Positions 20,764 through 25,713 of a DNA stretch of 64,000 bases are shown piece by piece. Both the position numbers and the translations under genes were made by a program. The DNA is taken from assembly GCF_021631985.1 (NCBI RefSeq), contig NZ_CP070225.1:8928001-8992000 (forward strand). Direction: 5' to 3'. Within the stretch, counting starts at the first letter, position 1; each line of letters opens with the position of its first letter. The notes beneath the pieces were generated by a model. The model was not told the origin of the DNA. It saw nothing but the letters and a program-made list of their open reading frames with translations, and made no database searches. The DNA comes from Sandaracinus amylolyticus. Its GTDB lineage: Bacteria > Myxococcota_A > Polyangia > Polyangiales > Sandaracinaceae.

Positions 20764-22302
20764 ATGAGAGCCGTCGATCTGCTTCGCTTCTTCTTCGCCG
20801 CGGCCGCGCTCGCCGCGCCCTTCGCCGGATGTGACGGCGGGCCGAGCCTCGAGGAGCTCAACCGCGTGACCGCGGTGCGCGACCCCAGCGTCGACGACAC
20901 CGCGCCCGACGCGCCGTTCCGCCCCGGTCAGCGCCGCGACGTGGGAGACGCGGACGCGACGTTCGACGCCGAGGGCTGGAACGAGTTCATGAGCGCGGTG
21001 ACGATGCCCGGCGATCTCGACGGCGACGGCATCGGCGATCTCGTCGTGTGGGGCGAGCTCCCGAACCCGCCCGACATCGTGCCCTGCCACATGGGGTGCC
21101 CCGGCTTCTCGCAGCTCGCGATCCGCATCATCTACGGCTCCACCACGCTCGGCGCCGACGGAACGCTTCGCACCGACGCGGAGCTGCTGAGCTGGCACGT
21201 CAACGGGCTGCGCATGTCGGTCGACGCGGCGGGCGACGTGAACGGCGACGGGCTCGCCGATCTCGTCGTCGGCGTGGGCACGTCGATCGACGACGTGCAG
21301 GGCAACGCGTTCGTGATCCTCGGCGGACCGCGCCTGCGCGGCACCCACGACGTGCGCGACGTGGGCCTCCTCCTGCGCGAGAACGGATCGACGCACTTCG
21401 ATCAGGTCGCAGGGCTCGGCGACGTCGACGGCGACGGGCGCGACGACTTCGCGGTCGGCGCGACGCAGTGGCCCAGCGCCGAGGATCCGCGCGGCCGTCT
21501 CTACGTGTACTACGGCGCCGATGGCGAGCCCGATCGTCGCAGCGAGGACGATGCGAGCGCCGCGATCACGAGCGAAGGCGCGACGCGCTTCGGCATCGCG
21601 CAGGCCGCGGGCGACGTGAACGGCGACGGACGCGGGGACTTCCTGGTGCGCGAGGAGGACGAGCTCGGCGCGGTGATCGCGACGACGTGGCTCGTGCTCG
21701 GGCGTGCCGAGCGCTTCGCGGGCGACGTCGACGTGGCGAGCATCGGCACGCGCATCGACGCCAGCGTGGTGCGCGGGCTCGGCGATCTCGACGGCGACGG
21801 GATCGACGATCTCGGCGCGACCGCCGACGAGGGCGCGCGCGACGGATTCGTGCTCTGGGGCCGCCCCGAGTGGCCCGAGTCGATCGTCCCGAGCGAGGCC
21901 GACACGTGGATCGATCGCGGCGAGGACACGCGCGCGAGCGGGACCGCAGCGCGACAGGTGCTGCCCGCGGGCGACGTCGACGACGACGGCCACCCCGACT
22001 TCTTCTATGCCGATCCCGGCTACGGGCCCGAAGGCGTGTCGCGCGGTGCGGCGTACCTCTTCCGCGGTGCGCTCGCGCGGGCGAGCGGCGGACATCCGCT
22101 CTCCGAGGCGACCGCGTTCCTCGGGCAGGACTGGCACGCGGAGAACGAGCCCGACACGCGGCGCGGCTACGACTCGATCGGGCGCTCGATCGCGTCGGGC
22201 TCCGACGTGAACGGCGACGGCATCGACGATCTCGTGCTCGCGGCGACGAGCGCGCCCGACGGTGGTCGCGGCTATCTCTGGCTCGGGCGGAGGGACGAGT
22301 GA
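20764..22302 (+). CDS. FG-GAP repeat lipoprotein
   Basis: A 512-residue secreted protein. The signal peptide ends with lipobox PFAGC. Seven FG-GAP/integrin-alpha-like repeats follow, each with a calcium-binding loop of the type GDLDGDGIGDLVV, GDVNGDGLADLVV or GDVDGDGRDDFAV; the penultimate one, GDVDDDGHPDFFY, is divergent. Such repeats fold as a beta-propeller that binds Ca2+, usually at the cell surface. The next lipoprotein starts within its stop codon (GTGA). No catalytic domain seen. The ATG at 20764 was chosen because it begins the signal peptide. Confidence 0.9.
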   Translation: MRAVDLLRFFFAAAALAAPFAGCDGGPSLEELNRVTAVRDPSVDDTAPDAPFRPGQRRDVGDADATFDAEGWNEFMSAVTMPGDLDGDGIGDLVVWGELPNPPDIVPCHMGCPGFSQLAIRIIYGSTTLGADGTLRTDAELLSWHVNGLRMSVDAAGDVNGDGLADLVVGVGTSIDDVQGNAFVILGGPRLRGTHDVRDVGLLLRENGSTHFDQVAGLGDVDGDGRDDFAVGATQWPSAEDPRGRLYVYYGADGEPDRRSEDDASAAITSEGATRFGIAQAAGDVNGDGRGDFLVREEDELGAVIATTWLVLGRAERFAGDVDVASIGTRIDASVVRGLGDLDGDGIDDLGATADEGARDGFVLWGRPEWPESIVPSEADTWIDRGEDTRASGTAARQVLPAGDVDDDGHPDFFYADPGYGPEGVSRGAAYLFRGALARASGGHPLSEATAFLGQDWHAENEPDTRRGYDSIGRSIASGSDVNGDGIDDLVLAATSAPDGGRGYLWLGRRDE

Positions 22303-22574
22303 TTCGCGCGCTCGTGATCGCGCTCGCGCTCTTCGTCGCTGCGTGCGCCGAGAGCCATCGGCGCGGGGACGAGGAGCTCGACGCGATGATCGCCGACGCC
22401 GACGCGAGCACGCTCGATGCGGGCGGGCGCGATGCGGGCGTGCGCGGCGACGCCGGGCCTGGACCGCGCTGCGGGCCCAACCGCTGCCGCGGCGGCGAGA
22501 TCTGCTGCCACGCCGAGTGCGGCATCTGCGCGTTCGAGGACGAGTGCGCCGACATCGTGTGCGGCGTGCGCTGA
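22299..22574 (+). CDS. Small Cys-rich lipoprotein coupled to the FG-GAP gene
   Basis: A 91-residue protein starting with GTG inside the upstream stop (GTGA overlap). The signal peptide ends in lipobox FVAAC. An Asp/Ala/Gly linker (DADASTLDAGGRDAGVRGDAG) is followed by a compact Cys cluster with pattern CGPNRCRGGEICCHAECGIC and four more Cys. This linker-plus-knot layout is common for myxobacterial surface lipoproteins. No function known; coupling suggests it accompanies the FG-GAP protein. Confidence 0.75.
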   Translation: MIRALVIALALFVAACAESHRRGDEELDAMIADADASTLDAGGRDAGVRGDAGPGPRCGPNRCRGGEICCHAECGICAFEDECADIVCGVR

Positions 22575-22685: not shown

Positions 22686-25241
22686 ATGCGGTGGTCGTCT
22701 CGATTCGTGTGGATGTCGGTCGTGCTCGCGACGTTCGTCGTGGTCCCAGGTTGCGGCGACGACGATGTGATGGACGTCGCCGACGCGGGGCGCGACGCGG
22801 GCCGTGGCGACGCCGGTCGTGACGCGTCGACGCCGGTCGATGCCGGCAGCGACGACGCGCAGGTCGAGGACGACGCGCAGGTCGAGGACGACGCGCAGGT
22901 CGACGACGACGCGAGCGTGATGGAGGACGGCGGCATGCCCGACGGCTGCACGCCGATCGAGTGCGACGTCGAGGCGTGCGGCACGATCGACGACGGCTGC
23001 GGTGGCACCGCGGACTGCGGCGGCTGCGCGGCGCCCGACACCTGCGTCGACAACGTGTGCACGTGCGTCCCGCAGACGCAGGAAGCGGCGTGCGGGACGC
23101 GCGAGTGCGGAGCCGCGCCGAACGGCTGCGGGACCAACTACGACTGCGGCACCTGCGACGGCGGTGAGACCTGCAACGCGAGCGGCACGTGCGAGTGCGT
23201 GCCGGTGACGCAGGAGGTCGCGTGCGGCGCGCGCGAGTGCGGGACCGCGCCGAACGGCTGCGGGACCAACTACGACTGCGGCACCTGCGGCAGCGGTGAG
23301 ACCTGCAACACGACGACCGGCATGTGCGACTGCGTGCCGGTGACGCAGGAAGTGGCGTGCGGGACGCGCGAGTGCGGGACCGCGCCGAACGGCTGCGGGA
23401 CCAACTACGACTGCGGCACCTGCGAGAGCGGCGAGACCTGCAACGAGACGACCGGCGTGTGCGGGTGCGTGCCGGTGACGCAGGAAGCGGCGTGCGGCGC
23501 GCGCGAGTGCGGGACGGCGCCGAACGGCTGCGGCACCAACTACGTCTGCGGCACCTGCGACGGCAGTGAGGCGTGCAACACGACGACCGGCGTGTGCGAG
23601 TGCGCGCCGGTCCCGCAGGACGTCGCGTGCGCGGGCCGCACGTGCGGCACTGCGTCGAACGGCTGCGGCACCGACTACACGTGCGGCGCGTGCCCGAGCG
23701 GCGAGTCGTGCACCGAGACGTTCCAGTGCGCGCTGCCCAGCGTCGGCTGGTGCAAGCTGCAGTGGCCGCCCACCGCGACGTACGCCGAGGGCGGCAGCGT
23801 GACGGTCTACGGCCACGTCTACGTGCAGAGCCTCACCGATGGCTCGACCAGCACCGACACCGATCCCCGCTTGCTCGCCGCCGTCGGCTACGGCCCGGAC
23901 GGCACGCAGCCGAGCACCGCGAGCTGGACGTGGACCAGCGCGACCGCGAACCCCGGCTGGACCGGCGGCAGCACGCCGAACAACGACGAGTACCAGGCCG
24001 ACCTCGCCGCGCCGGCGGGCACGTGGGACTACGCGTATCGCTTCAGCAGCGACGGCGGCGCGACGTGGGTCTACTGCGACGGAGACGTCGAGGGCTCCTC
24101 CGACGGCTACGAGCTCGATCAGGCCGGCGCGCTCACCGTGACGGCATCGATCGCAGCGCCCTCGATCACGAGCGTGAGCCACGCCGCGCTCGCCCACGGC
24201 GCGCGCATCACGATCACCGGCACCGCGCTCGGGACGCTCACCGACGTGTCGATCGACGGCGTGATGCAGATGGTCGAGTCGACGAGCGACACGAGCGTCG
24301 TGATCCGCGTCGTCGACACGACGCCGATCGGCACCGGCCGCGCGCTCACCGTGACCGCGCCGAACGGCAGCGACACCGAGAACGTCACCGTCGTGCACCT
24401 CGTGATCAACGAGGTCGACAGCGATCAGGCCAGCACCGACACCGCCGAGTTCGTCGAGGTCACGACCGGCGTCGCCGCGCCGGTCGATCTCGGCGGCTAT
24501 CACTTGGTGTTCTTCAACGGCGGCGACACGAACGACCCCTCGTACCTCTCCGTCGCGCTCACCACGACCGACGCGGCGGGCTACCTGGTGGCTGGCAACA
24601 CTGCCGTCGACCCCGACGTCGTGATCGCGGGCAACTCGATCCAGAACGGCCCGGACGCGCTGGCGATCGTGCAGTCGAACTCGGCCATCGCGAACGGCAC
24701 CGCGGCGAGCTCGTCGTCGCTGCTCGTGATCGACGCGCTCGCCTACGCCGCCAACGCGACCGGCGACGCGTCGGTGATCGCCGCGCTCTTCGGCACCGGA
24801 CCGCAGGCGGTGAACGCGAACGAAGCCGGCGGCGGCTCGCTCAACACGCACTCGGTCCAGCGCTGTGGCGCGGCGCGCCGCGACGGGCGTTCGTTCCCGA
24901 TCGCAGCGGTGCCCACGCCGGGCGCGGCGAACTCGTGCGCGGCGTTCACGCAGGCCGAGCTGCAGGCTCGCTTCGAGACGCAGTGCGCGTCGTGCCACGG
25001 CGCGAACGGCGATTTCGCGGTCGGCAGTGACTTCACGGCAGCGACCATCGGTGTCCCGTCGATGGAGCTGCCGACGATGTCGCGCATCACCGCGGGCGAT
25101 CACCTGCAGAGCTACCTCTGGCACAAGCTGAACGGCAGCCATCTCACCGTCGGGGGCTCCGGCGTGCGGATGCCGTCGGGCGGGACGGCGTGGAACGCGA
25201 CCGACCTCTACCGTCTCGCGCAGTACATCGATAGTCTCTGA
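22686..25241 (+). CDS. Multidomain lipoprotein: Cys-rich repeats, IPT, lamin-tail and cytochrome c
   Basis: An 851-residue surface lipoprotein (lipobox VVPGC, Cys23). After an Asp-rich linker come six Cys-rich units, five nearly identical, each with CGTxECGxAPNGCGTNYxCGxC. A beta-rich domain (about 355-480; WCKLQWPPTATY) follows, then an IPT/TIG-like domain (about 490-570) and a lamin-tail-like domain (about 575-750; INEVDS, AEFVEV, GGYHLVFF). The C-terminal cytochrome c-like domain has heme motif CASCH (Cys767, Cys770, His771) and a plausible distal Met829 in RMPSGG. An alternative ATG lies 21 bp upstream. Electron transfer at the cell surface is inference. Confidence 0.88.
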   Translation: MRWSSRFVWMSVVLATFVVVPGCGDDDVMDVADAGRDAGRGDAGRDASTPVDAGSDDAQVEDDAQVEDDAQVDDDASVMEDGGMPDGCTPIECDVEACGTIDDGCGGTADCGGCAAPDTCVDNVCTCVPQTQEAACGTRECGAAPNGCGTNYDCGTCDGGETCNASGTCECVPVTQEVACGARECGTAPNGCGTNYDCGTCGSGETCNTTTGMCDCVPVTQEVACGTRECGTAPNGCGTNYDCGTCESGETCNETTGVCGCVPVTQEAACGARECGTAPNGCGTNYVCGTCDGSEACNTTTGVCECAPVPQDVACAGRTCGTASNGCGTDYTCGACPSGESCTETFQCALPSVGWCKLQWPPTATYAEGGSVTVYGHVYVQSLTDGSTSTDTDPRLLAAVGYGPDGTQPSTASWTWTSATANPGWTGGSTPNNDEYQADLAAPAGTWDYAYRFSSDGGATWVYCDGDVEGSSDGYELDQAGALTVTASIAAPSITSVSHAALAHGARITITGTALGTLTDVSIDGVMQMVESTSDTSVVIRVVDTTPIGTGRALTVTAPNGSDTENVTVVHLVINEVDSDQASTDTAEFVEVTTGVAAPVDLGGYHLVFFNGGDTNDPSYLSVALTTTDAAGYLVAGNTAVDPDVVIAGNSIQNGPDALAIVQSNSAIANGTAASSSSLLVIDALAYAANATGDASVIAALFGTGPQAVNANEAGGGSLNTHSVQRCGAARRDGRSFPIAAVPTPGAANSCAAFTQAELQARFETQCASCHGANGDFAVGSDFTAATIGVPSMELPTMSRITAGDHLQSYLWHKLNGSHLTVGGSGVRMPSGGTAWNATDLYRLAQYIDSL
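23064..23735 (+). repeat. Tandem 132-135 bp coding repeats in the multidomain lipoprotein
   Basis: Unit starts at 23064, 23196, 23331, 23466 and 23601 are spaced 132, 135, 135 and 135 bp. Units two to four are nearly identical in DNA, pointing to recent duplication or ongoing gene conversion; the last is more diverged. A weaker related unit precedes them. Confidence 0.9.
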
Positions 25242-25245
25242 CCCG

Positions 25246-25713
25246 GTGCCGGGTGCGCTCGACGTTTACGACCTGATCCGCGCCGTGGTGGCGATCACGA
25301 TCGCCGCCGCGGCCGCGGCGCACGAAGGGCGCACCCGCACCATCCCGAGCTCGCTCTCGCTCCCACCGATCGCGCTCGGCTTCGCGCTCGCCGTCGTCGA
25401 CGGTCGGGTCCGCGCGACGATCGGTGGGCTCGTGCTCTCCGGCTTCGCCGCGCTCGTGCTCTCCGGCACGCGCATCCTCGCGGGCGGTGGCATCGGGCTC
25501 GTCGTCGCGCTCGGCGCGTGCCTCGGCCTCGCGCCCGCGCTCTACGCGTGGATCGCGGCGGTGATCATCACGCTCGTGGTGAGAGGCCTGCACGCGAGCG
25601 AGTATCCCGACGCCGCGGACGCCGGGCGTCCGACCTTGCTCGCGAGCCGCATCGCGCTGGTCGCGATCACGATCGGCGCCGCGATCGATCTCGCGCTGCA
25701 GGCCGCCGCGTAG
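25246..25713 (+). CDS. Prepilin-peptidase-like membrane protein lacking catalytic Asp
   Basis: A 155-residue integral membrane protein with four or five helices and GTG start, 4 bp after the upstream gene. The layout and the segment RTIPSSLSLPPIALGFALAV match the A24 (type IV prepilin peptidase/CpaA) family, where an Asp precedes a similar R-x-IPN motif. Here the Asp position falls at His26-Glu27. The second catalytic motif, normally GxGD-x-K, reads AGGGIGLVVALG, without Asp. Both catalytic acids therefore seem lost, so it is probably not an active peptidase. A remote or chance resemblance is possible. Confidence 0.65.
   Translation: MPGALDVYDLIRAVVAITIAAAAAAHEGRTRTIPSSLSLPPIALGFALAVVDGRVRATIGGLVLSGFAALVLSGTRILAGGGIGLVVALGACLGLAPALYAWIAAVIITLVVRGLHASEYPDAADAGRPTLLASRIALVAITIGAAIDLALQAAA

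Follow-up and report, generated by a model that had tools for sequence, protein, structure and literature searches.

The protein encoded by one open reading frame in the analysed window, a 64,000-nucleotide stretch of the Sandaracinus amylolyticus genome (10.96 Mb, two contigs), probably ends in a single-heme cytochrome c domain carried by a long modular stalk, as judged from its sequence. The protein is conserved and real; the set of similar Myxococcota proteins to which it belongs is large and, as to function, unexplored. We consider it likely, though well short of certain, that it functions as a lipid-anchored monoheme c-type cytochrome, with the stalk-held heme domain acting as a tethered electron carrier.

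Domain architecture of the lipoprotein

The reading frame has 95% GC at its third codon positions. An earlier note on this DNA had described a lipid-anchored protein joining Cys-rich units, IPT, lamin-tail and cytochrome c domains. The domain search that it had proposed recovered all of these modules, the IPT domain as IPT-like, and added a beta-sandwich (residues ~352-490) that had been overlooked. When the whole 851-residue protein was scanned, nothing matched in NCBIfam, and in Pfam the lamin-tail domain (LTD) was the sole match reported. Because the cytochrome domain was missed in this full-length scan, fragment scans were needed. The resulting layout is as follows.

22686-25241, + strand: intact open reading frame, 851 residues encoded
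22686..22754, + strand: signal peptide and lipobox, residues 1-23 (WMSVVLATFVVVPGC, then GDDD), predicted lipidation at Cys23
22755..22946, + strand: Asp/Ala/Gly-rich acidic low-complexity linker, residues 24-87, seen in the sequence
22947..23732, + strand: six Cys-rich units, residues 88-349
23739..24155, + strand: beta-sandwich domain with Ig-like fold (modelled), residues 352-490
24159..24365, + strand: IPT/TIG-like domain, residues 492-560
24396..24935, + strand: lamin-tail (LTD) domain, residues 571 to ~750, assigned by homology
24942..25238, + strand: probable C-terminal cytochrome c domain, residues 753-851
24984..24998, + strand: heme attachment motif CASCH, residues 767-771
25170..25172, + strand: Met829, predicted distal heme ligand

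Cys23 is preceded by VVVPG, a plausible lipobox that is kept in the orthologue of a congener. Together with the hydropathy score, this motif points to a lipoprotein signal peptide and thus agrees with the lipid anchor proposed earlier, lipidation being predicted. The protein contains 55 cysteines and one CXXCH only.

The C-terminal domain is a probable cytochrome c

Scanned as a fragment, residues 753-851 scored above the Pfam cut-offs for both Cytochrome_CBB3 (PF13442, 29.3 bits, cut-off 27) and Cytochrom_C (PF00034, 26.4 bits, cut-off 21.3). In all 37 domains that were aligned, C767, C770 and H771 are matched by C, C and H. Met829 is Met in 35 of them, and both exceptions trace to one poorly aligned domain seen at two overlapping loci; Met793 and Met798 are not conserved. 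Met829 is thus the sole conserved Met able to serve, which favours its predicted role as distal ligand, as the earlier note had suggested. That note had also placed CASCH at the far C-terminus of a lipoprotein, which the profile scores and the 37-domain alignment bear out, and the residue numbers it gave were correct. In a second alignment, comprising 19 relatives, Met829, S809, L811, K814 and P830 are invariant, and the profile built from it finds solved cytochromes, with FoxE as best match (E 2e-4). An AlphaFold model of residues 745-851, computed from the single sequence without relatives, reached a pLDDT of 36; the heme pocket is therefore deduced from homology and not from the model.

In having CXXCH, a distal Met and scores over the curated cut-offs, the domain resembles the Class I monoheme c-type cytochromes (PF13442, PF00034), but differs from these in sitting as a head at the C-terminus of a long lipoprotein with several domains. 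The planctomycete cytochrome C family PSCyt1 (PF07635) was matched by 8 of the 19 aligned relatives, but was absent among the matches of the window's own domain up to E 10.

Modules of the stalk

The Cys-rich array consists of one diverged 39-residue unit (residues 88-126) followed by five units of 44-45 residues (127-170, 171-215, 216-260, 261-305 and 306-349). Units 2-5 share 76-89% protein identity with each other, whereas their identity to unit 6 is 50-62%. Accordingly, the description as nearly identical units fits the four middle ones. The array matched no Pfam family in the fragment scan and had no match in the PDB.

The beta-sandwich is common to Myxococcota and Bacteroidota proteins (relatives L033-L042), where it sometimes adjoins lamin-tail domains; L033 (59% identical), a short lipoprotein, has no other recognisable domain. 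AlphaFold modelling with 14 sequences gave a pLDDT of 89.3, and the model suggests an Ig-like sandwich. In a fold search with this model, GlgE N-terminal domains ranked first (Z 9.5), and immunoglobulin domains reached Z ~8. We drew no functional conclusion from this search, as having an Ig-like fold in common says nothing about function. The beta-sandwich profile had no match among PDB sequences and the window's domain matched no Pfam family; two of the 14 members gave chance-level matches only. The fold search returned Ig-like sandwiches only. A carbohydrate-binding label was considered for the domain and not adopted.

The two remaining stalk modules scored below their cut-offs in the fragment scan. 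The IPT/TIG profile (PF01833) reached 18.3 bits against a cut-off of 20.9 (E 0.002), and residues 492-560 are therefore called IPT-like only. The LTD profile (PF00932) reached 27.6 bits against a cut-off of 34.3 (E 4e-6); residues 571-685 align with residues 206-332 of L150 (E 5e-6), a region where LTD passes the cut-off, and the lamin-tail label thus rests on homology to this confirmed LTD. Pairings of IPT and LTD are also present without a cytochrome, in L150 and L155-L157.

Conservation and gene neighbourhood

A congener (G001) encodes a full-length orthologue that is 76% identical and has the same neighbours on both sides, which excludes a chance origin of the feature. The C-terminal domain, whose absence from close homologues would have spoken against the earlier note, is present in this orthologue and is in fact the part most alike in the two proteins (87% identity), followed by the IPT-like domain (85%), the Cys array (79%), the sandwich (78%) and the lamin-tail domain (53%). 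Relative to this orthologue, dN/dS is below 1 throughout, with dS uncertain owing to the high GC content. No orthologue was found in a third genome of the genus, a draft assembly. The following genes flank the reading frame and also adjoin the orthologue.

20764..22302, + strand: FG-GAP repeat lipoprotein (Pfam), start estimated
22299..22574, + strand: small Cys-rich lipoprotein, start estimated, 4-base overlap with the FG-GAP gene
25246..25713, + strand: membrane protein with weak similarity to type IV leader peptidases (PF01478, 17.8 bits, cut-off 26.5), 4 bases past the stop codon

Among the genes adjoining the reading frame there is no redox enzyme, no carbohydrate enzyme and no signalling partner.

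A recurring design with interchangeable stalks

The source genome contains ~18 domains of the cytochrome family at E <1e-3; the paralogous domains are mostly C-terminal on lipoproteins, several of them behind Cys-rich arrays. Searching the order yielded 58 genomes with a match to the cytochrome domain, and among plasmid records there was a single match, which covered just the cytochrome part. We collected 62 proteins, a sample that is not random because loci L116-L130 were fetched for their long frames. In this set, the cytochrome domain ends 15 residues or fewer from the stop in 58 proteins, and a lipobox is present in at least 50. The segment between anchor and head varies among relatives: in some it is no more than a few residues, in others it consists of STIG1-like repeats (L119, L128), Cys-rich repeats of another kind (L130), FN3 repeats (L123) or the modules found in the window's protein, whose 731-residue spacer is the longest in the set. 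Its exact domain order was found in two species only, the source and the congener. The domain order had been called unusual, which is right for this exact order but not for the underlying plan, as a lipobox, a variable stalk and a terminal cytochrome are common in the phylum.

Close parallels to the long-stalked form are L148 and L149, from the same phylum but outside this class. Like the window's protein, they have a long stalk with lamin-tail domains and end in a cytochrome, here with the motif CAGCH; they also share its beta-sandwich, which the profile found at E 4e-17 and 2e-14, respectively, with no hits in a reversed-sequence control; L148 also has a lipobox-like motif, and the N-terminus of L149 is cut by the end of the fetched stretch. 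Unlike the window's protein, they have four LTDs, a Gly-rich linker and other Cys-rich units, with no IPT match. This composition indicates that lamin-tail, sandwich and cytochrome were brought together in distant lineages, and the fact that they recur so far apart in the phylum suggests that they act together. At the other extreme, the same order contains stand-alone lipoprotein cytochromes (L045, L049, L051-L053, L055) of 160-200 residues, which have a lipobox and a 32-50% identical domain but no stalk modules.

Further arrangements were seen in passing. At ~4500-5600 of L089 (G000:C1:9166464, minus strand), a second lipoprotein of the source genome has Cys-rich segments, a cytochrome domain with CTGCH in its middle and a C-terminal FN3-like segment. 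Each of the lipoprotein-like frames L152 and L153 contains two cytochrome domains and at least 12 copies of the repeat DNDxDGxxDCADxDC.

Among proteins already described, the nearest analogues are the modular cytochromes of Cellvibrio and Teredinibacter, together with the planctomycete-specific cytochromes found in the PVC phyla (PMC8981238, PMC10916295, PMC5615132). Cbp2D and Cbp2E of Cellvibrio and TERTU_2913 and TERTU_3803 of Teredinibacter, whose cytochrome domains are of the X183 type, resemble the window's protein by description: they are secreted, large and modular, and their small c-type domain with a His/Met pair adjoins modules that bind or whose role is unknown (PMC8981238, PMC10916295, PMC12542752). 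The Cellvibrio and Teredinibacter proteins carry CBM, YceI-like or X122 modules, unlike the protein studied here. In the PVC phyla, large protein families without known function combine a cytochrome domain with other modules (PMC5615132); apart from lacking a PSCyt1 match, the window's protein has no planctomycete-specific domains.

Proposed function and alternative readings

As a tethered electron carrier, the protein would be exported via its lipoprotein signal and probably be held in the membrane through Cys23. The Cys-rich units, beta-sandwich, IPT-like and lamin-tail domains would form a ~730-residue stalk that sets reach and binding, with the heme domain at its far end. C767 and C770 would bind the heme covalently, His771 and Met829 would be its axial ligands, and the head would pass single electrons between a membrane or periplasmic donor and a partner located at the cell envelope or close to it. 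The analysis shows the order of the domains, the cytochrome homology, the conservation of the ligands and of the protein in two species, the recurrence of the design and the presence of cytochrome c assembly proteins in the genome; lipidation, heme loading, electron transfer, membrane face and partner are inferred. Counted against this reading, the model of the cytochrome domain is of low confidence, no redox enzyme adjoins the gene, and one heme alone cannot carry electrons across a membrane. In contrast to MtrCAB-type extracellular electron transfer, the window's protein has a single CXXCH, and no match to the MtrB porin (PF11854) was found in the source genome, which makes a classical outer-membrane conduit unlikely. 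Electron exchange at the outer surface, as the earlier note had envisaged, is possible from the sequence, though the genome appears to lack an MtrB-type porin to support it. The literature searched for surface cytochromes of myxobacteria and for cytochromes of Sandaracinus offered nothing pertinent.

Several other readings were weighed against the carrier. Given 55 cysteines in the protein, CASCH might be a chance or relic motif that binds no heme; the Pfam cytochrome scores over cut-off, the retention of heme motif and Met across the family and the zero hits of the reversed-sequence control make this extremely improbable. If heme is bound, it might instead serve as a sensor or as a fold stabiliser on an adhesin, in line with the adhesin-like module composition. 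We regard such a role as very doubtful, since no signalling partner gene adjoins, electron carriers typically show such a conserved His/Met pair, and small stand-alone members of the family have no other module at all; for the heme-sensing adhesin of the earlier note in particular, nothing in our analysis speaks. A further reading keeps electron transfer but turns the protein toward the periplasm, as an ordinary tethered carrier between membrane complexes whose long stalk spans this compartment. Tethered monoheme cytochromes are common in the periplasm, heme attachment occurs at the outer side of the inner membrane, and short-stalk family members measure just 160-200 residues. Yet a ~730-residue stalk exceeds the need of such a carrier, and lamin-tail, Cys-rich and Ig-like modules are presumably more usual in secreted or surface proteins, so that we deem a periplasmic orientation unlikely.

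Finally, the protein could assist polysaccharide oxidation in the manner of Cbp2D, the beta-sandwich binding a glycan and the cytochrome feeding an extracellular oxidative enzyme. The GlgE N-terminal domain is the best structural match of the sandwich (Z 9.5), the Cbp2D cytochrome domain is able to reduce an LPMO (PMC8981238), and the genome contains one LPMO_10-like frame (L158, G000:C1:5699979-5700404; 28.8 bits, cut-off 23), for which reason a Cbp2D-like role was kept under consideration. However, immunoglobulin domains align nearly as well (Z ~8) and the Ig-like fold shows no function, the LPMO_10 frame is distant from the gene with no carbohydrate enzyme adjoining, and in Teredinibacter, cytochrome domains of a similar kind failed to drive the organism's LPMO (PMC10916295). 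We thus rate such a helper function as decidedly unlikely, and retain the tethered electron carrier as preferred reading. If it is heme-loaded and surface-exposed, the family would provide genome-wide, long-reach single-electron carriers in bacteria not known for metal respiration.

Heme-motif spacing and maturation

Across 49 distinct domains of the family, the number of residues between the CH pair and the nearest Cys preceding it is 2 (21 domains), 4 (16), 5 (5), 1 (3), 3 (2) or 7 (2), and the MP motif is kept in all 49. This range from CXCH to CX7CH inside one cytochrome family includes loci L048, L054, L056, L061, L068, L070, L095, L097 and L109. Elsewhere, CX3CH and CX4CH have been counted as heme motifs (PMC10734462); no use of CX5CH as heme motif was found in the literature searched. 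The source genome encodes three Cytochrom_C_asm proteins, one of them a CcmF-like frame of 945 residues, and ResB was not found in it, which is consistent with system I maturation. The varied motif spacing within one family would represent a natural test of the tolerance of cytochrome c assembly. More speculatively, and as a tentative proposal that we would not yet call likely, the Myxococcota may hold a large undescribed class of surface tip-heme lipoproteins for contact electron exchange, with the monoheme domain nearly always last, interchangeable stalks of <20 to >700 residues, and one maturation system loading motifs from CXCH to CX7CH.

Of note, a lipoprotein paralogue with a CX4CH motif (CSFASCH) is located at ~4400-7841 of L134 (G000:C1:9223400-9226840), with dnaK directly on one side and, on the other, a CcmF-like gene whose end is CcmH-like by fusion; the paralogue lies directly upstream of this CcmF-like frame.
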